From assembly GCF_005222205.1 (NCBI RefSeq), contig NZ_CP032345.1:499001-563000 (forward strand): DNA of 64,000 nt, read 5' to 3'. Positions 9,096-16,464 of the stretch are shown one piece after another. The position numbers and the translations under genes were made by a program. The first letter of the stretch is position 1. Each line of letters starts with the position of its first letter. The DNA comes from Azospirillum brasilense (GTDB lineage: Bacteria > Pseudomonadota > Alphaproteobacteria > Azospirillales > Azospirillaceae). The notes below the pieces were generated by a model. It was not told the origin of the DNA. It saw only the letters and a list, made by a program, of their open reading frames with translations, and ran no database searches.

Positions 9096-9206
9096 TGGTA
9101 AAATTATTCTTTCACATTCAATGACAAAGATTGCTGCATACGCGCATACATTGGTAAAATGCCGTGGATTTTTCGCACAGCCGTGCGAACAGCATCGGGG
9201 CTGAGG

Positions 9207-10004
9207 ATGGCAGAAGCGGTTGCCCGCCGGACGATACTGGCCTTGGCGCTCGCCGGACTAACGGCGGGCGGCCTTCCGTCGTCCGGCCTTGCGGCAACCG
9301 CCGACTCCGCGACCGCTCCGGTGACCGTCAAGGTCGGCGGCTACGAGTTCCCCCCCTACGTCACCGAGTCCGGCGGCGGCGTCACCCAGGCCCTGCTCGA
9401 CCTTCTGAACGCGGAGCAGAGCGACTTCCGATTCGAACTGGTCCGCACCTCTCCCCAGCGGCGTTACGAGGACATGGAGCGGGGCCGCTTCGATATGATC
9501 GCCTTCGAAAGCCTCGCCTGGGGCTGGAAGGGGCGCCCCGTGGAGGCTTCGCGGGTGTTCCTGCGCGACGCGGAGGTGTTCGTCGCCAAGGCCGGTCCCG
9601 GCATGGACCAGAGCTACTTCGACCGGCTGGACGACAAGACGATCCTCGGTCGGCTCGGCTACCATTACGCCTTCGCCGGCATGACCGCCGACCCGGAGGT
9701 GCTGGAGAAGCGCTTCAACACCCGGCTGACCGTCACGCATGAGGGCAACGTGCGCAGCGTCGCCGCCGGGCGCGCCGCGCTGGCCATCGTCACGCGCTCC
9801 TTCCTGGCGCAGTTCCTGAAGGCCAACCCCGATATGGCCCCGCTGCTTCTGGTGTCCGACCGCACCGATCAGATCTACGAGCACACCATTCTGGTCCGCC
9901 GCGACGGTCCGGTCGGCATCGCCTGGATCAACGGCACGCTCGACCGGCTGGAGCGCAGCGGCGCCCTGCCGGCGCTGTGGGCGCGGCAGGGAATCAGCCC
10001 GTGA
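9207..10004 (+). CDS. Periplasmic solute-binding protein, amino-acid-binding (SBP_bac_3) type
   Basis: The protein of about 265 residues has an N-terminal signal peptide (ARRTILALALAGLTAGG, cleavage near GLAATA). The fold resembles extracellular solute-binding family 3: VKVGGYEFPPYVTE at the start of the mature domain, then GGVTQALLDLLN, RRYEDMERGRFDMIAFES and GRAALAIVTRSFLAQFL. No permease or ATPase gene accompanies it. Its TGA overlaps the GTG start of the HAMP-PP2C phosphatase gene (GTGA), so the two are translationally coupled. It may therefore present a ligand to that sensor rather than feed a transporter (inference). An upstream ATG at 9159 would lengthen the signal region; GGGG before 9207 favours the shorter form. 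Confidence 0.82.
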   Translation: MAEAVARRTILALALAGLTAGGLPSSGLAATADSATAPVTVKVGGYEFPPYVTESGGGVTQALLDLLNAEQSDFRFELVRTSPQRRYEDMERGRFDMIAFESLAWGWKGRPVEASRVFLRDAEVFVAKAGPGMDQSYFDRLDDKTILGRLGYHYAFAGMTADPEVLEKRFNTRLTVTHEGNVRSVAAGRAALAIVTRSFLAQFLKANPDMAPLLLVSDRTDQIYEHTILVRRDGPVGIAWINGTLDRLERSGALPALWARQGISP

Positions 10005-11575
10005 CCGAGCTGCGCTCCCTCGCCGTTGGACGGCACGACCGTTCGCTGCTGACCCGCATCGGCAGCGTCATCCTGGTCACCGCCGCCGCCGTGGGGATGG
10101 TCGCCGTGGCCGTGTCGGCCAACATCGTGGAACACCAGCAGGTCTCGGCTCTGACCAAGCGGGCGCAGCTGGTCGCCGCCATGCAAACGGACGCGCTGGC
10201 CAACCCGATCTGGGAGATCGACGACCGCGCCGTCCGCAACATCATCGATTCGCTGCGCGAGCGCGACCCGGCCATCCTCGCCGTCTCCGTCTTCGAGCCG
10301 GGGCGCAGCGAACCGATGGCGGTGTCCGGCGACCCCAGGACCTCCGCCGATTCCACCACCGTCGAGAAGGTCATCGATCTGCGGGGGCGCGACGGGGTGA
10401 CCCGGCAGGTGGGAACGCTGCGCCTGCTCTATTCGACGGAGGAGGTCCACCGCAACACGCTGGAGGCGCTGCTGCCGGTGGGCGGGCTGCTTCTGCTGTC
10501 CCTGATCACCGCCATCGCCATCATCAGCGTCATGCTGAACCGCGTCGTGCTCCGCCCGCTGCGGCGGCTGACCCAGGCGACCCAGGCGGTGTCCCGGGGC
10601 GACTACGGCGCCCGCCTCGCCACCGAGCGGGAGGATGAGATCGGCGTCCTGACCAAGACCTTCAACCGCATGGCCGAGACCGTCCAGGACTACACCCAGA
10701 CGCTGGAGTTCCGCGTCCAGGAGCGGACGGAGGCGCTGGCCGACATCAACCGCCGCATCATGGACAGCATCAACTACGCCCAGCTGATCCAGTCCTCCAT
10801 CCTGCCGAAGCCGGAGGTTCTGGAGGGCGGGCTGGCCCAGCACTTCGTCCTGTGGCGTCCGCGCGACGTGGTCAGCGGCGACTTCTACTATTACCGCGAG
10901 GTAGAGGACGGCTTCCTCATCGGCGTGGCCGACTGCACGGGCCACGGCGTCCCCGGCGCCTTCATGACCATGACGGCCAGCGCGGTGCTGAACAACGTGG
11001 TGGACGGCATGGGCGCCGCCGATCCCGCGGCGCTGCTCGGCATGGTGGACGGCAAGGTGCGGGCGGCGCTGCATCAGGACGGCGACGCGGCAAGCTGGGA
11101 GGGCGGCTTCGACAACGGGCTGGATCTGGCGCTGTGCTACGTCCAGCCGGCGCGGCGGCGGCTCGTCTATGCCGGCGCCCGCCTGCCCCTGGCCATCGCC
11201 GGGCCGGGCGGGTTGACCGAGATCCGCGCCGAGCGCCGCAGCCTGGGCTACCGCGCGTCCGGCCCCACCCCGGCCTTCACGAATCACAGCCTGGACCTGC
11301 TGCCCGACCAGACCTTCTACATCTGCACCGACGGGCTGACCGACCAGTGCGGCGGGGAACGGGGGCGGAGCTTCGGCAAACGCCGGCTGCACGGCGTGGT
11401 GGAGGAGTGCAGCGCCCTGCCGCTCGACCTGCAGAAGGAGCGCATCGAGGCCTGCCTGTCCGGCTTCCAGGGCGACCGCCCGCAGCGCGACGACATCACC
11501 ATGATCGGCTTCCGGGTCCGGCTGGCCGACGATCCGGCGGCCCCGACGCGGAACACCCTGTGGGAAATCGCGTAA
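10001..11575 (+). CDS. siaA: Membrane sensor HAMP-PP2C (SpoIIE-type) serine/threonine phosphatase, SiaA-like
   Basis: This protein of 524 residues starts at GTG 10001. It has a membrane helix at about 22-42, a periplasmic sensor of about 115 residues, a second helix at 157-178, a HAMP domain at about 178-232, a short coiled coil, and a PP2C/SpoIIE phosphatase from about 285 to the end. VVSGDFYY (290-297) and ADCTGHGVPGAFM (310-322) supply the metal-binding aspartates, and RDDITMIGFRV closes the domain. This is the architecture of SiaA, which dephosphorylates SiaC. SiaB-like and SiaC-like genes lie 2-3 kb downstream on the opposite strand. The start overlaps the stop of the binding-protein gene. 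The symbol reflects architecture and context, not a search. Confidence 0.85.
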   Translation: MTELRSLAVGRHDRSLLTRIGSVILVTAAAVGMVAVAVSANIVEHQQVSALTKRAQLVAAMQTDALANPIWEIDDRAVRNIIDSLRERDPAILAVSVFEPGRSEPMAVSGDPRTSADSTTVEKVIDLRGRDGVTRQVGTLRLLYSTEEVHRNTLEALLPVGGLLLLSLITAIAIISVMLNRVVLRPLRRLTQATQAVSRGDYGARLATEREDEIGVLTKTFNRMAETVQDYTQTLEFRVQERTEALADINRRIMDSINYAQLIQSSILPKPEVLEGGLAQHFVLWRPRDVVSGDFYYYREVEDGFLIGVADCTGHGVPGAFMTMTASAVLNNVVDGMGAADPAALLGMVDGKVRAALHQDGDAASWEGGFDNGLDLALCYVQPARRRLVYAGARLPLAIAGPGGLTEIRAERRSLGYRASGPTPAFTNHSLDLLPDQTFYICTDGLTDQCGGERGRSFGKRRLHGVVEECSALPLDLQKERIEACLSGFQGDRPQRDDITMIGFRVRLADDPAAPTRNTLWEIA

Positions 11576-11712
11576 CTACCCTTCGAAAGATTGCGTAATA
11601 GTGCAGCAGGGGGCCGTTGCGGGCCGAAGTCACTCGATTTACCATTCGACTTCATATAGTTTCCGCGCCGGCCCTATGAACAATAAGCACCGGTAACGGG
11701 GGAGCAGAGGGG

Positions 11713-12444
11713 ATGGCGGCCGTTACGATCGTTGTCGTCGAGGACGAGGCGTCTCTGCGACGTGACATGATCGAGTACCTGCGCAGTTGCGGCTTCGACG
11801 CGATCGGAGCGAAGAATGGACGCGAACTGGACGAGCAGATCGCGTCACGCCCGGTATCCTTGGTTGTTCTGGACGTCAACCTTCCGGGCGAAGACGGGTT
11901 CAAGATCGCCACGCGGCTGCGCGAGAATCCCGCCATCGGAATCATCATGGTGACCGCCCGCGGCTCCACCGTGGACCGGGTGGTCGGGCTGGAACTGGGG
12001 GCCGACGCCTATCTGGTGAAGCCCGTCGAGATGCGCGAGTTGGAAGCCCAGGCCAAAGCCCTGCTTCGCCGTCTGGAGACCAGCAACGGCACCACCGCAC
12101 CGCTGTCTCCGCAGTCCTCCGGCCCGCCCGCAACGGACGAGGCCAGCTGGATCCTGGACGCCACGGCCTGGGCGTTGACCAGCCCGGCGGGCGTTCGCGT
12201 CAGCCTGACGAGCATGGAGATGAAGCTGGTCTCGCTGCTGGCCGGGCAGGCCCGCCAGCCGGCGACCCGCGACCAGATCTCCGTGGCGCTCTACAACCGC
12301 CGCTGGAACCCCGACGACCGTTCGATCGACACGGTGGTCGGGCGTCTGCGCCATAAGGTGGAAAACGCCATCGGCGAAACCGCCCCGGTCAAATCGGTCC
12401 ACGGCGTCGGCTATGTGTTCTCCGCCCCAGTCCGGGTGGTCTGA
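11713..12444 (+). CDS. OmpR/PhoB-family response regulator
   Basis: The 243-residue protein has a receiver domain (acidic pocket E10/D11, phospho-acceptor D54 in VVLDVNLPGEDG, Lys in YLVKPVE). A linker of about 25 residues with Ser/Thr/Pro follows, then a winged-helix DNA-binding domain (LTSMEMKLVSLLAGQ, DDRSIDTVVGRLRHKVE, VHGVGYVFS). It should be a transcription factor switched by histidine phosphorylation. It sits 137 bases after the PP2C gene and converges with the soluble histidine kinase gene, which is its likely partner by proximity. Its stop codon lies inside a 16-base tandem repeat. Confidence 0.93.
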   Translation: MAAVTIVVVEDEASLRRDMIEYLRSCGFDAIGAKNGRELDEQIASRPVSLVVLDVNLPGEDGFKIATRLRENPAIGIIMVTARGSTVDRVVGLELGADAYLVKPVEMRELEAQAKALLRRLETSNGTTAPLSPQSSGPPATDEASWILDATAWALTSPAGVRVSLTSMEMKLVSLLAGQARQPATRDQISVALYNRRWNPDDRSIDTVVGRLRHKVENAIGETAPVKSVHGVGYVFSAPVRVV

Positions 12445-12477
12445 AGTCCGGGTGGTTTGAAATCCGGGTGGTCTGAA
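12430..12477 (+). repeat. Three 16-base tandem repeats at the regulator stop codon
   Basis: The units GTCCGGGTGGTCTGAA, GTCCGGGTGGTTTGAA and ATCCGGGTGGTCTGAA follow one another directly, with a three-base partial fourth. The first contains the coding end and TGA stop of the response regulator. Because 16 is not a multiple of three, gain or loss of a unit would leave the protein end unchanged but shift the downstream spacer. Confidence 0.85.
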
Positions 12478-12498
12478 ATCGGGGCGATCCGGCGCCGC

Positions 12499-13548
12499 TC
12501 AGGCGGGCGCGTCGTCCGGAGGAGTGCTTCTCGGAAAGGTCAGGACGAAGCGCGTTCCCTGCCCCGGCGCGCTGTCCACCGAAATCGTCCCCTTCAGCGC
12601 ACCGACCGCCAGATTGTGCACGATGTGCAGGCCGAGTCCGCTGCCTCCCTCGCCGCGCCGGGTGGTGAAGAAGGGGTCGAAGATGCGGGGCAGGTGGTCG
12701 GCTGGAATGCCCCGGCCATCGTCGGTGTAGACCAGCCGCACGGTGCCGGGCTCCGGCTCCTGCACAGTGATCGACAGGGCGCCGCCCTGCCCCTCCGCGC
12801 CCTGCGCGTCGACGAAGGCGTGGGTGACCGAATTCATCACAAGGTTGGTCAGGATCTGCGACAGCGCACCCGGATAGCTGTCCACCACCAGCCCGTCCGG
12901 GCAGGAGACGGAAATGCCGTGCCGGCCTTGGCGGAGCTTCGGTTCCAGACTGACCAGAGTCTCCTGGATATAACGGTTGAGGTTCACCGCCCGCCGCTCG
13001 GCGCTGGCGCGGTCCACCGCCACCTGCTTGAAGCTGGCGATCAGCTTGGCCGCCCGCTCGCAGTTGGTGAGGATCAGCGCCGTGGTGTCGGTGGCGGTGG
13101 CGAGATAGCGGGAGAAGTCCGCCTTGCTCAGCTCGCCGGACTGGGCGCGCCGGCGCAGCCCGGCGGTGGCGTCGGACAGGTGCGACGCGCAGGACACCGC
13201 GATGCCCACAGGGGTGTTGATCTCATGCGCCACCCCGGCCACCAGGGCGCCCAGGGAGGCCAGCTTCTCGGCGCGGACCATCGCTTCCTGCGCCTCGCGC
13301 AGATCGGCCAGCGCGGTTTCCGCTTCCTGCCGGCGGCGTTCCAGCTCCTGGTTGGCGGAGCCGAGCTGCGCCTGCAGCCGGTCGCTGACCCGGACCAGCC
13401 GGCGTTGCTCGCGCGTGCTGCGCTGGAACGCCTCCACCAGAGCCTCGAAGTCGGCGCGCAGTTCGGGCGCGGCGGCGCCCAGCCTCTCACCCAGAAGGCG
13501 GGCCTGCTCGATGGCCAGCTCCTCAGCGGCGAAGAGGTTGAAGGTCAT
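12499..13548 (-). CDS. Soluble sensor histidine kinase in the SiaBC operon
   Basis: This is a cytosolic kinase of 349 residues without membrane helices. The N-terminal 100 residues are helical and coiled-coil. The HisKA box holds H108 (LGALVAGVAHEINTPVG). The HATPase_c domain has the N box (LTNLVMNSVTHAF), G1 (DDGRGI), F box (DPFFTT) and G2 (GGSGLGLHIV). Its ATG overlaps the SiaC stop by four bases (ATGA), so SiaC and this kinase are made together. In Pseudomonas the SiaC client SiaD is a diguanylate cyclase; here a histidine kinase occupies that place, so SiaC may control it (inference). A longer reading starting at 14028 would only traverse siaC out of frame. Confidence 0.93.
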   Translation of the reverse strand: MTFNLFAAEELAIEQARLLGERLGAAAPELRADFEALVEAFQRSTREQRRLVRVSDRLQAQLGSANQELERRRQEAETALADLREAQEAMVRAEKLASLGALVAGVAHEINTPVGIAVSCASHLSDATAGLRRRAQSGELSKADFSRYLATATDTTALILTNCERAAKLIASFKQVAVDRASAERRAVNLNRYIQETLVSLEPKLRQGRHGISVSCPDGLVVDSYPGALSQILTNLVMNSVTHAFVDAQGAEGQGGALSITVQEPEPGTVRLVYTDDGRGIPADHLPRIFDPFFTTRRGEGGSGLGLHIVHNLAVGALKGTISVDSAPGQGTRFVLTFPRSTPPDDAPA

Positions 13549-13943
13549 GGCGCCCCGTCTGCGGGAATCTGTTTCAGGGTGAAGGCGACGTGGTGCAGAT
13601 CCTCGGCGAAATCCTCGCCCAGCTCCTGCATCGAATCGTCGTTCTCCTCGTAGCACCAGGTGACGGCGATGCTGCGCCCGTTGCCGGCCGCCGTCTCCAG
13701 CATCTGGAAGATGTTCATCAGGGCCTTGGCGCTGGAGCTGTTGAAGTACAGCAGTTCCATGTCGAAGCGGATCGGGTGGCCGCCCGCCTCGGCGAGGAAG
13801 GCGCGGAGAGCGGCGAAGATCGGGCCGAAGAAGGTCGCGACGTCGTCGGGATAGGACTCGCCGCTGAGGCGGAGCACGCCCTGGGCGAAGTCGAAATCGA
13901 CTTCGGGCGTCCGGCCCGTCGCGGGCAATTTCAGGGATTCCAT
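13545..13943 (-). CDS. siaC: SiaC-family (DUF1987) regulatory phosphoprotein
   Basis: This protein of 132 residues has the family features: ATGRTPEVDFDF near the N-terminus, VLRLSGESYPDD, and MELLYFNSSSAKALMNIFQM in the middle. In P. aeruginosa SiaC a threonine at position 68 is phosphorylated by SiaB and released by SiaA. The corresponding segment here is FNSSS with serines at 69-71, so the acceptor is probably Ser. The ATG at 13943 gives the usual N-terminus; a GTG at 13961 would add six residues. It lies 26 bases after siaB and overlaps the downstream histidine kinase gene by four bases. Confidence 0.85.
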   Translation of the reverse strand: MESLKLPATGRTPEVDFDFAQGVLRLSGESYPDDVATFFGPIFAALRAFLAEAGGHPIRFDMELLYFNSSSAKALMNIFQMLETAAGNGRSIAVTWCYEENDDSMQELGEDFAEDLHHVAFTLKQIPADGAP

Positions 13944-13969
13944 GGTCGTCCGGATGTCCACAGCCGCTT

Positions 13970-14533
13970 TCAGATCCGAGCCTTGAGACAGAAGAAGCTT
14001 TTGCCTTCGTCCATTTCGAGGAAATCATACTCGATGGGTTCGCTGGCGCGGCGTGCGATCTCGATCAGCCCGATGTTGGCGCCCCGCGCGCCCTCTTCCG
14101 GGGTTTCGCGCAGCTGCTCCCGGTAATAGGTCTTGATGGCGTCCTTGTCCAAGCCCTTCAGATATTCGAGCCGGTCGCGCAGGCGCGGCACATCGGCGTT
14201 GTACACGGTGTTGCCGCAGACGATGAAGACCTTCCCGCCTTCCATGCCGATGGTGACCATCCCGGCGCTCAGCTCGACCGGCTTCTCGCGCGCGCCGGTC
14301 ATCTTCTCGGCCGAGTAACGGATGATGTTCTGCATCTGCTCGACAAAGACGGCGAAGACCCGGCGGACCGTCGGGCCGTCGGTTTCCTCCAGGGTCATCT
14401 TTTCCCGCAACGCCTCTCCCAGGGAATAGAGTATCCCCTCGGACAGATAGCCGCTGAACGAGAAGATGATGCCTTTTTCGTCGAGGTCCCGTTTGATCCC
14501 GGCATATTGCTGAGCGAGCATAATGGAGTCCAC
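13970..14533 (-). CDS. siaB: SiaB-family protein kinase
   Basis: The 187-residue protein belongs to the SiaB type, an anti-sigma-factor-like (GHKL) serine/threonine kinase fold. FVEQMQNIIRYS at about residues 63-74 resembles the N box, and EGARGANIGLIEIARRA near 150-163 resembles the glycine box. GIIFSFSGYLSEGILYSLGE near the start is typical of the group. It should phosphorylate SiaC. It is the first gene of the SiaB-SiaC-histidine kinase operon, and it faces the SiaA-like phosphatase across the convergent regulator and kinase genes. Confidence 0.85.
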   Translation of the reverse strand: MDSIMLAQQYAGIKRDLDEKGIIFSFSGYLSEGILYSLGEALREKMTLEETDGPTVRRVFAVFVEQMQNIIRYSAEKMTGAREKPVELSAGMVTIGMEGGKVFIVCGNTVYNADVPRLRDRLEYLKGLDKDAIKTYYREQLRETPEEGARGANIGLIEIARRASEPIEYDFLEMDEGKSFFCLKARI

Positions 14534-14688
14534 GGTTCTTCCGTTGGAGTGCGAAAAGGCCGCCCGCCGCGTCAGAAGGGTCCGGAGCGGTTTCCGGCAA
14601 TCGCGTCGGCCTTGTTATGAGCACGTTACATTTCCGTCCGCCGCGCTGGAAGGATTATCAAGGGAAGGCGGCGGCCGACCGGACGCGG

Positions 14689-16464
14689 TCAGCTTTTCAG
14701 CGGGAGACGGACACGGAAGACGCTGCCCTGCCCGACCGTGCTTTCGACGCTGATCGAGCCGCCGTGCAGCAGGATGATCTGCCGCACCGTGTGCAGCCCT
14801 ATGCCCGTCCCCGGCACGCCGGCCGAACCGGTCCCCCGGTAATGCCGCTCGAACAGCAGGGGCAATTCGTGCTGCGGGATGCCGCGCCCCTGGTCGGCCA
14901 CCTCGACCACCGCCATGCTGCCGTCCATCCGACCGCGCACGGCGATCCGGCAGTCGCTGTCCGAATATTTGAAGGCGTTGTTCAGCAGGTTGCTGAACAG
15001 CATGCCCAGCAGATGCCCGTCGGCCATCACCACGGGCGGCAGCGGATCGAGATCCAGGTGGAAGTCGCAGCCGGAATAGGCGGTGCGGAAGGGTTCGGTC
15101 ACCGAGCGCAGCAGCGCCCTCAGATCGACCTCGGCCCGCTGCACCCTCAGCGTCCCGGCCTGAAGGCGCTCGTCAGTCAGATGGGTGTCGATCAACCCGG
15201 TCAGGCGCTGGACGCTGCTGCGGATGACGCGCAGCCGTTCCAGCGAGTCCGGGGTCTCCCGCTCCGCCCGCAGCGTCAGCATCTGGGCGGCGCTGTCGAT
15301 GATGGCCAGCGGCGTGCGGAATTCGTGGCTGACCATGGTGACGAACTGGCGCTGCTGCTCGCGGGCGACCAGTTCGGCCTCCAGCGCCCGCTCCACCCGC
15401 TCCTTGGCGGCGACCAGGGCGGCCTGGTTGGCGGCCAGCTCGGCCGTCCGCTCGCCGACGCGCCGCTCCAGCGACTGGTTCAGCGCCACCAGATCCTCAT
15501 AGAGGCACACATTGTCGAAACCGATGATGACGCGGGCGCAGAACAGCTCCAGCAGACGGTGATCGTCTTCGCGGTAGGGCTCGCTGCGCTCCAGGGCGAA
15601 GACCGTCGTCCCGTGCTCCCGCGTGCGGAAGGCGAGGACGCAGCGGGCCGACCCGAAACTGCTCTGCTGCGTCTCGAAGGCGGCGACCACCTGGGCGGTC
15701 AGATCGGGCTCCAGGGCGTCGGAGGCGGGCCGCCCGACGAACCGCGCGAAGCGGCCGGAACCGGCGACCAGGGCGGCCCGCGTCTTGCCGTCGCCGCGGT
15801 CCACCATGCGGCAGGCCAGAATGGCGCCGCCGCTGTGGTCCACGACCTTGCTGAGCTGGTCCACCAGCTCTTCCACCAGCGTTCGCATGGAGCGGGTTTC
15901 GAACAGCGGGGCGGAGGCGGCGAGGATGCGCTCCAGCCCCTGGCGGTGCCGCTCGATGGTGACGATGTCGCGCCACGCCCGCAGGCCGCTGACCAGCGTG
16001 GTGAACAGGCGCTGGGCGGTGAGTTCGCTCTTGGCCTTGTAGTCGTTGATGTCGTAGGCGACGACCACGTCCCGTTCCGGCGCCTGTCCGGGCTGGCCGG
16101 TGCGCAGGATGATGCGCATGCGATGGTTGTTCAGATCCTCGCGGATGAAGCGGACCAGACGCAGGCCGGCGTCGTCCGTCTCCATCACCACGTCGAGCAG
16201 CGCCACCGGAATGTCCGGGCGGGTCAGCAGGAGCGACCGGGCGGCCGCGGCCGACAGGGCGCTGACCACCTCGAACGGCCGGTCTTCGAACTCGAAATCG
16301 CGCAGCAGCACCTCGGTCATGGTATGGACCTGGGGATCGTCGTCGACCACCAGAACGGGCCACGGGTCCGCCGGCCGGGCGTTGGCCGTGGAGTCGTCGG
16401 CAAAGCCGTCGTCGGGTCCGAACAACGGTTCGTCGTCCAGACCTTCGTCCATATCCTGGCCCAT
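14689..16464 (-). CDS. Receiver-DUF3369-histidine kinase hybrid
   Basis: The protein has 591 residues. A receiver domain (about 36-160) carries acceptor D91 and K143. A DUF3369 domain (about 165-325) follows, a GAF-like partner of receivers known from RpfG-type proteins. Then come a coiled coil, HisKA with H380 (FVTMVSHEFRTPL) and HATPase_c (NLLNNAFKYS, DQGRGI, GTGIGLHTVRQI). There is no membrane segment. GGAGGAGAGC immediately precedes the ATG at 16464, which decides the start; the frame continues open for 111 bases upstream. A receiver at the N-terminus means the kinase can itself be an output of another kinase, perhaps the SiaC-linked one (inference). It is the most upstream gene of the minus-strand group. 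Confidence 0.93.
   Translation of the reverse strand: MGQDMDEGLDDEPLFGPDDGFADDSTANARPADPWPVLVVDDDPQVHTMTEVLLRDFEFEDRPFEVVSALSAAAARSLLLTRPDIPVALLDVVMETDDAGLRLVRFIREDLNNHRMRIILRTGQPGQAPERDVVVAYDINDYKAKSELTAQRLFTTLVSGLRAWRDIVTIERHRQGLERILAASAPLFETRSMRTLVEELVDQLSKVVDHSGGAILACRMVDRGDGKTRAALVAGSGRFARFVGRPASDALEPDLTAQVVAAFETQQSSFGSARCVLAFRTREHGTTVFALERSEPYREDDHRLLELFCARVIIGFDNVCLYEDLVALNQSLERRVGERTAELAANQAALVAAKERVERALEAELVAREQQRQFVTMVSHEFRTPLAIIDSAAQMLTLRAERETPDSLERLRVIRSSVQRLTGLIDTHLTDERLQAGTLRVQRAEVDLRALLRSVTEPFRTAYSGCDFHLDLDPLPPVVMADGHLLGMLFSNLLNNAFKYSDSDCRIAVRGRMDGSMAVVEVADQGRGIPQHELPLLFERHYRGTGSAGVPGTGIGLHTVRQIILLHGGSISVESTVGQGSVFRVRLPLKS

Follow-up and report, generated by a model that had tools for sequence, protein, structure and literature searches.

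A histidine kinase as the predicted client of a SiaABC-type partner switch in Azospirillum brasilense

Introduction

What does the switch protein SiaC control when no diguanylate cyclase is encoded beside it? This question is raised by a locus in a 64,000-nucleotide stretch of DNA (the window), part of contig C1 (2.94 Mb) of a 7.2 Mb genome of the Azospirillum brasilense group in 6 contigs. The locus encodes relatives of SiaA, SiaB and SiaC, the phosphatase, kinase and switch protein of a partner switch in Pseudomonas aeruginosa. According to PMC8457831, unphosphorylated SiaC activates its client SiaD, a diguanylate cyclase, and phosphorylation of SiaC at T68 prevents SiaC-SiaD binding. Neither the open reading frames (ORFs) nor a Pfam scan revealed a GGDEF gene among the locus genes, and the cyclase client of SiaABCD proper is absent from the locus. 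Directly downstream of siaC there is instead a gene for a soluble histidine kinase (HK).

An original prediction for this DNA suggested that Ser phosphorylation of SiaC gates a two-component relay. As a prediction from sequence, this claim is supported by our analysis: HK carries the stalk motif that SiaC grips in SiaD. The reading that we favour, with a probability of about 0.73, is a SiaABC partner switch in which HK would be the client and would feed a receiver-kinase and then an OmpR-type regulator.

Results

The kinase stalk carries a SiaD-like motif

In the SiaC-SiaD crystal structure, as described in PMC8457831, SiaC binds the stalk of SiaD at the motif R80-I-S82-D83-R84-x-Q86. SiaC residue T68 reaches in between the helices of the stalk, where it forms bonds with S82 and Q86, and SiaD residues D83, R80, R84, K77, V78 and I81 likewise contact SiaC. 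When HK (12499..13548, minus strand) was aligned to SiaD, its N-terminal stalk proved to carry R53-V-S55-D56-R57-L-Q59 at the place of this motif, with Ser-Asp at the places of S82 and D83. The aligned SiaD chain reads ...EKVARISDRYQQMMRD, HK residues 48-64 read ...QRRLVRVSDRLQAQLGS, and the predicted SiaC-docking motif of HK spans residues 46-64 (REQRRLVRVSDRLQAQLGS; 13357..13413, minus strand). HK has the same or a similar residue at 8 of 13 SiaD contact positions (K77-R50, V78-L51, R80-R53, I81-V54, S82-S55, D83-D56, R84-R57 and Q86-Q59). Among the 120 HK relatives listed, of 7,399, S-D-R-x-Q is kept in 119, the exception reading S-D-R-Q-H. A short DNA pattern for the motif was uninformative, with 10 matches in the genome versus 7 for a control.

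The remainder of the protein is a HisKA-type kinase, with H108-E-x-N-T-P, N235, N239, D276-x-G278 and a HATPase_c match of 94 bits. H108, N235, N239, D276 and G278, which we take to mark the H-, N- and G-boxes, are invariant in a 43-sequence alignment of the window protein and 42 chosen relatives; the Pfam HisKA model itself gave no score for the window HK and a weak one, below cut-off, for L104. An AlphaFold2 model of HK (mean predicted local distance difference test score, pLDDT, 85; predicted template modelling score 0.66) has a short helix (residues 7-26) and a single helix (28-136) that holds both the docking motif (46-64, pLDDT above 90) and His108. Because one modelled helix carries both, a change of helix register upon SiaC binding is a plausible route to the HK active site.

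The stalk accompanies SiaC

A stalk profile was built from the ORFs that surround SiaC genes; these were collected by searching the genus, the class and the phylum, and further ones came from named contigs. In 154 of 178 loci, this first profile matched the gene immediately after siaC, a count that includes repeat fetches of the same places and leaves out a second family, the one containing Magnetospirillum. The profile had four further matches below 0.01, all to ORFs at other places in these loci, and all ORFs searched belonged to SiaC loci. Counted over distinct SiaC genes with the second family included, a stalk gene lies directly downstream in 163 of 187 cases and somewhere in the locus in 167. 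The directly downstream cases comprise 57/57 in the genus, the window, four of four named loci, 40/40 in the second family and 61 of the 85 SiaC genes from the class and phylum searches, for which the figure within the locus is 65. The second-family set, 40 loci of 45 matches, contributed nothing to the profile; its kinases are relatives of the window HK.

We also considered whether the stalk match is circular, an explanation weakened both by this second family and by profiles built from a single output class. A GGDEF-only profile, made from 19 diguanylate cyclases of SiaC loci, finds HK at E=2e-16; profiles made from class III cyclases alone (8 sequences) or HD proteins alone (6) find it at 4e-12 and 9e-9, respectively. 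Searched against 10,313 ORFs, all from SiaC loci, the GGDEF, cyclase, HD and kinase profiles gave 180, 162, 145 and 180 matches below 1e-3. All of these fall inside a 180-member client set, and none of the ORFs outside it was matched.

In the genome that contains the window, the stalk profile matches HK alone, at E=3.4e-20 (116/116 candidates scored). The next match, an open frame read as a chemotaxis receptor, has E=0.21, and no second stalk protein was found in this genome at E<=0.001. The presence of the stalk also follows that of SiaC across genomes. Of 385 genomes of the class, 14 have SiaC (13 over cut-off), 15 have the stalk and 13 have both (Fisher p 3e-21, kinship ignored); among 398 genomes of the phylum, the corresponding numbers were 67 (66 over cut-off), 61 and 59 (Fisher p 6e-59, kinship again ignored). 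At most 15 stalk candidates were scored per genome and some assemblies are incomplete, making absences soft on both sides. A stalk without SiaC was seen in G310 (a fragment with a stop), G491 (a weak match) and G103 (a clear stalk kinase).

One stalk precedes four output classes

Sorted by Pfam, the window HK and 40 representative clients chosen at 60% identity, 41 proteins in all, comprise 19 GGDEF proteins, 8 class III cyclases, 8 histidine kinases and 6 GAF-HD_5 proteins, HD_5 being presumably of the HD-GYP type. One of the class III cyclases has a PilZ domain and one of the histidine kinases has receivers. Pfam names no domain for the stalk, in which D56 (HK numbering) is invariant and S55 is kept in at least 90% over the 41 clients of four output types. 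A tree of 81 SiaC proteins after thinning at 78% identity (31 kinase-, 25 GGDEF-, 15 HD- and 10 cyclase-linked; 123 columns, many forks unresolved) needs 12 output changes.

Stalk clients with GAF and HD_5 domains occur at L122:2913-4988, L145:5643-7730, L165:2454-4520 and elsewhere, and SiaC may control the breakdown of cyclic di-GMP (c-di-GMP) through such HD-GYP-type clients. Class III nucleotide cyclases are found as stalk clients in L107, L111, L140, L169, L173, L175 (the client with the PilZ domain), L177 and L194, and by similarity in L147; through these a SiaC link to cyclic AMP or cyclic GMP is possible.

The switch proteins are relatives of SiaA, SiaB and SiaC

SiaC (13545..13961, minus strand; GTG start, alternative ATG at 13943) matches PF09345, formerly DUF1987, with 140.6 bits against a cut-off of 24.5, and PDB entries 6k4f and 6kko at about 5e-23; its score of 104.5 with the NCBIfam SiaC equivalog falls short of the cut-off of 150. 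In the alignment to P. aeruginosa SiaC, N-S-S-S of the window protein stands opposite N-T-S-S, placing the predicted phospho-serine, Ser75 (Ser69 with the ATG start; 13737..13739), opposite T68. Ser or Thr occupies this place across 163 unique SiaC-client pairs (weighted tables). Positions of SiaC that touch SiaD are more uniform than others: in kinase-linked SiaCs, the mean share of the top residue is 0.85 at 14 such positions versus 0.63 elsewhere, and in GGDEF-linked SiaCs it is 0.70 versus 0.53. Covariation between the Ser/Thr phospho-site and the stalk residue at place 52 looked strong; we set it aside because the Thr types seem to be mostly one clade of the SiaC tree.

The SiaB-family kinase (13970..14533, minus strand; PF19788/DUF6272, 150 bits against 26.6) scores 211 bits with the subfamily model NF038262 (cut-off 85) and 112 with the equivalog NF038264, whose cut-off of 225 it does not reach. 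It matches PDB chain 6kko_A at 2.9e-23; this chain, which we take to be SiaB, is labelled 'putative serine phosphatase' in the PDB and shares its entry with SiaC. A single copy each of SiaB and SiaC was found in the genome.

The SiaA-like membrane phosphatase (10001..11575, plus strand) has SpoIIE (70 bits) and HAMP (59 bits) domains above the Pfam cut-offs and a CHASE5 match of 21.8 bits, under the cut-off of 27. Its PP2C part aligns to the SiaA structure 6k4e at 1.1e-66 with the metal-binding stretches GDFY, DC.GHG, TDG and DDIT conserved; phosphatase residues of SiaA that matter are named in PMC7647112. With the equivalog NF038263 it reaches 364 bits of the 700 required. Because the SiaA, SiaB and SiaC equivalog cut-offs are missed while the SiaB subfamily cut-off is reached, we regard the locus, by sequence, as a relative of P. 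aeruginosa SiaABC rather than that very system.

The likely start of siaA overlaps the stop of a periplasmic substrate-binding-protein-like (SBP-like) gene in a GTGA read directly in the sequence (10001..10004). The latter gene (9207..10004, plus strand; ORF from 9159, start at 9159 or 9207) has weak matches: Pfam Phosphonate-bd with 23.4 bits, under the cut-off of 27, and ancestral solute-binding proteins in the PDB at E=5e-4. A relative at L300:9082-9870 is an SBP_bac_3 protein above cut-off and precedes a SiaA-like gene. An SBP-like gene adjoins a SiaA-like gene in L300, L318 and L329 as well, and the arrangement suggests that SiaA senses its ligand through the periplasmic binding protein.

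The gene set recurs in two families

The seven locus genes form two convergent groups. The plus strand carries the SBP-like gene, the SiaA-like gene and the gene for the OmpR-type regulator (11713..12444; Pfam Response_reg receiver and Trans_reg_C winged helix). The minus strand, in order of transcription, carries a receiver-DUF3369-HisKA-HATPase kinase (14689..16464), SiaB, SiaC and HK. At the gene level, the original prediction proved accurate: SiaA-, SiaB- and SiaC-type genes are all present in one locus by Pfam, NCBIfam and PDB matches; no GGDEF gene turned up at the locus in the ORF and Pfam scan; HK overlaps siaC by four bases (ATGA at 13545..13548, minus strand, siaC stop and HK start, read directly in the sequence); a receiver-DUF3369 kinase and an OmpR-type regulator, their domains identified by Pfam, complete the set; and the SiaC phospho-site is predicted to be a serine. 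The picture needs amending in two respects, the arrangement being two convergent groups rather than one operon and the SBP-like gene that overlaps siaA having been left unnamed. A role in anti-phage defence was also considered and rejected; PADLOC gave no match for four of the locus proteins.

Because it is conserved across the genus Azospirillum, the gene set is not a chance assembly. We compared 26 genus loci with a kinase of this type, each taken with roughly 5 kb of DNA to either side, some of them truncated by contig ends. Of these, 25 have OmpR and the DUF3369 kinase, 25 have the SiaA-like phosphatase and 21 have the SBP; among 23 named loci, largely from one species, the counts are 23 for OmpR, 23 for the DUF3369 kinase, 22 for the SiaA-like protein and 22 for the SBP. 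The SiaC-neighbour search that had been proposed across Azospirillum therefore shows both genes staying with SiaB-SiaC-HK in 25/26 loci. Departures are individual: L197 has SiaA, SiaB, SiaC and the kinase without OmpR or a DUF3369 kinase nearby, L196 and L203 have SpoIIE proteins with a different N-terminal part in the place of SiaA, and L219 is without SBP and SiaA.

The second family, which includes Paramagnetospirillum, Magnetospirillum and Telmatospirillum, has a SiaC match in 45 of 55 genomes (44 over cut-off), and of its 41 loci examined, 38 are of the kinase type and three are SiaD-like. OmpR is present in 33 of these 38 (in the siaC direction in 31) and a receiver of the DUF3369-kinase kind in 37, and the kinase pair and OmpR, as originally supposed, belong with the switch, kept in reordered form in most kinase-type loci of this family. 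In L300, a single direction holds OmpR, a receiver (REC)-kinase, SiaB, SiaC, the kinase, a REC-PAS-GGDEF protein, SBP and SiaA; few other second-family loci have SBP and SiaA near. A full-length REC-PAS-GGDEF gene lies behind the kinase in 12 kinase-type loci, with one more cut by a contig end. It directly follows the stalk kinase at L300:7549-9024 and L325:7436-8839, and L325 and L326 have neither OmpR nor a REC-kinase near SiaC, the kinase being followed by REC-PAS-GGDEF (contig-cut in L326). In this family the cyclase may have moved behind a phosphorelay. Because the same genes recur reordered in two families, there is good evidence, from gene neighbourhoods, that the set is one pathway.

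Wiring of the predicted relay

The predicted relay kinase has Pfam matches to DUF3369 (129 bits), HATPase_c (88) and HisKA (48), and a receiver match of 26 bits, under the cut-off of 30; it gives no stalk match. The most constant partner of the stalk kinase is a receiver of the DUF3369-kinase kind, and OmpR accompanies the receiver-kinase. Elsewhere in the genome, the closest match to the window OmpR regulator among the 150 candidates scored, of 185, is 40% identical to it, whereas the regulator of a paralogous SiaC module of other Azospirillum genomes is 51% identical.

This second module (L214-L216, L188, L193 and L218) has a Thr site, kinase and GGDEF stalk clients in a row, and an OmpR-like regulator. 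In 6/6 loci the stalk is fused to a kinase core, an OmpR-like regulator is encoded nearby, and the roughly 5 kb around contain no separate DUF3369 kinase. This core shares 41-46% identity with the DUF3369 kinase and about 26% with the window stalk kinase. The module was not found in the window's genome, which has one SiaC only.

The simplest reading of these neighbourhoods runs from SiaC to the stalk kinase, the REC-DUF3369 kinase and OmpR. The DUF3369 kinase more likely receives phosphate and talks to OmpR than serves as SiaC's direct client, which is predicted to be the soluble kinase. This refines the original suggestion that SiaC gates the relay: the stalk motif points to HK, and not to the DUF3369 kinase, as the docking partner. 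Elsewhere in the genome, an 838-amino-acid open frame (G000:C1:1428629-1430119; L339, L342) joins a receiver of the same kind (47% to REC-PAS-GGDEF) to GGDEF, a possible route back to c-di-GMP in trans.

Discussion

How might the parts work together? The sequences show the genes, the motif, the specificity of the stalk and their conservation, and from these we infer the following order of events. The SBP-like protein and the SiaA receptor would sense a periplasmic cue and set the phosphatase activity of SiaA. SiaB would phosphorylate SiaC on Ser75, and SiaA would take the phosphate off. Unphosphorylated SiaC would then dock on the HK stalk at R-V-S-D-R-x-Q, as it does on SiaD, and shift the register of the helix that reaches His108, most likely switching HK on. 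HK would in turn phosphorylate the receiver of the REC-DUF3369 kinase, which would control the OmpR-type regulator.

Several observations weigh against this scheme. HK differs from SiaD at 5 of 13 contact positions (R74, Y85, M88, R90 and D91), and the window SiaC differs at four contact positions (Q10G, I71A, D79Q and R103S), which vary among cyclase-linked SiaCs as well. Between the motif and His108, HK residues 81-110 are modelled with less certainty (pLDDT 74-80). SiaD has two docking motifs, and SiaD-type ORFs often have two stalk matches where HK has one; this difference suggests, from sequence, two SiaC per HK dimer rather than four. No stalk gene lies directly downstream of 24 of the 187 SiaC genes, 8 of 67 SiaC genomes in the phylum set have no stalk match, and the stalk profile was trained partly on the co-occurrence genomes, with kinship uncorrected. 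G103, estimated to be 100% complete, has a stalk kinase, L234 (G103:C14:44067-44252), and no SiaC match; this kinase may be an orphan client or have a different partner. Natural SiaC fusions were absent from 296 candidates scored in a word-based search, which is weak evidence. The step from HK to the DUF3369 kinase is weakened by L324, a kinase-type locus without a receiver of that kind nearby, and by six further such receivers elsewhere in the genome, at 38-52% to a REC-PAS-GGDEF query versus 60% for the locus's own.

What SiaC does to the kinase, and which receiver the kinase serves, could each be otherwise. Helix-register changes in histidine kinases can go either way, and nothing in the sequences, with the motif and His108 on one modelled helix, fixes the sign: SiaC could inhibit HK, such that SiaB rather than SiaA turns the relay on. 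We consider this unlikely, although a serious contender, since in SiaD, the one case measured in the papers covered, unphosphorylated SiaC activates its client (PMC8457831). Another possibility is that SiaC docks on HK and that HK phosphorylates OmpR directly, the DUF3369 kinase being a parallel second input. OmpR is the nearest receiver gene, is present in 25/26 genus loci, and in the paralogous module (6/6) accompanies a single stalk kinase without a separate DUF3369 kinase within about 5 kb. However, the kinase core of that module shares 42% identity with the DUF3369 kinase and 26% with the window stalk kinase, favouring a DUF3369-kinase/OmpR pair, and in L325 and L326, where no OmpR lies nearby, the gene after the stalk kinase encodes a receiver of the DUF3369-kinase kind. 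Direct phosphorylation of OmpR by HK is accordingly doubtful in our view.

Two further alternatives would remove HK from its predicted position altogether. The original prediction had itself pointed to a SiaD-like GGDEF protein elsewhere in the genome as the possible true client, with HK a bystander, and the genome does hold many GGDEF matches, one of them in the 838-amino-acid frame with a receiver of the same kind. A genome-wide search with the stalk profile found no such protein, HK being the sole match and no other ORF reaching better than E=0.21, and SiaD in trans was rejected as the client; moreover, the kinase consistently lies next downstream in the loci of the genus, and it does so in 38/41 second-family loci. 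A cyclase in trans is, on this evidence, very improbable. Nor do we give much credence to the stalk being a generic coiled coil, kept by common descent with no SiaC-specific role. The stalk is helical, like the linkers of many kinases and cyclases, and most of the kinase-type clients belong to a single related group spread over two families. Yet the motif residues are nearly invariant over four unrelated output domains, no ORF outside the client set matches in the loci, DUF3369 kinases included, and the stalk tracks SiaC genome by genome; we regard a generic coiled coil as a slim prospect.

With HK as the predicted client, a broader view suggests itself, which we hold to be fairly probable: SiaC may be a general plug-in input, in which one switch protein and one docking stalk serve at least four output classes, the outputs being swapped and the interface fixed. 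In the Azospirillum and Magnetospirillum relatives, the partner switch would thereby become the input to a His-Asp relay, running from SiaC to the stalk kinase and on either to a receiver-kinase and OmpR or to REC-PAS-GGDEF.

The SiaABC switch and the SiaC-SiaD interface are already published (PMC8457831; PMC7647112), and PMC8457831 suggests that proteins of the DUF1987 family modulate their neighbours. Among the papers listed by our searches, which leave most subscription journals outside, none was seen to describe an action of SiaC on a histidine kinase or the stalk in output classes beyond the diguanylate cyclase; DUF1987 appeared there in PMC8457831 only and DUF6272 not at all, and the papers covered describe no SiaC link for class III cyclases or HD-GYP-type proteins. 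The original impression that the combination is not a described system agrees with the literature covered. The novelty appears to lie in the client and in how general the dock is, rather than in the switch. If the scheme is right, the DUF1987-neighbour suggestion of PMC8457831 becomes a residue-level prediction, and the stalk allows the client of a SiaC-family protein to be predicted from sequence, including class III cyclases and HD-GYP-type proteins. Ser/Thr partner switching and His-Asp signalling would meet at a defined, mutable helix, and a histidine kinase would come under the control of a phosphorylated STAS-like protein.

How does the predicted system compare with known ones? Sda and KipI of Bacillus are small proteins that bind a histidine kinase and set its activity; their binding site is on the core of the kinase rather than on a stalk at its N-terminus, and they are not known to be switch proteins phosphorylated on Ser/Thr. 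The paralogous Azospirillum module (e.g. L214) shares SiaA, SiaB, SiaC, a stalk kinase and an OmpR-like regulator with the window, but has a Thr rather than a Ser phospho-site, a second stalk client (GGDEF) and a core of the DUF3369-kinase type, with no separate DUF3369 kinase nearby. HsbR-HsbA-HsbD and BgrSTUWV, as PMC8457831 describes them, are likewise partner switches in which the switch protein acts on a client enzyme, although with STAS-domain switch proteins and diguanylate cyclase clients. In Campylobacterota, predicted PP2C-STYK-STAS clusters merge with other signalling, in one case with c-di-GMP enzymes (PMC9239204). Here too, Ser/Thr partner-switch parts are predicted from gene clusters to join other signalling, but in another case a histidine kinase is assumed to be the input to the phosphatase-kinase, whereas in the window it is the predicted output of the switch; none of the mergers predicted there makes a histidine kinase the output of SiaC. 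SiaABCD of P. aeruginosa, like the window, has a PP2C membrane phosphatase, a SiaB kinase, a SiaC/DUF1987 protein with Ser/Thr at the same place and a client with a SiaC-binding stalk motif, encoded directly downstream of siaC in SiaD-like loci also. Compared with SiaABCD, the window has a histidine kinase in place of GGDEF as the output and one docking motif rather than two. Further genes encode a REC-DUF3369 kinase, an OmpR-type regulator and an SBP-like protein whose gene is coupled to siaA, and the whole is arranged in two convergent groups.

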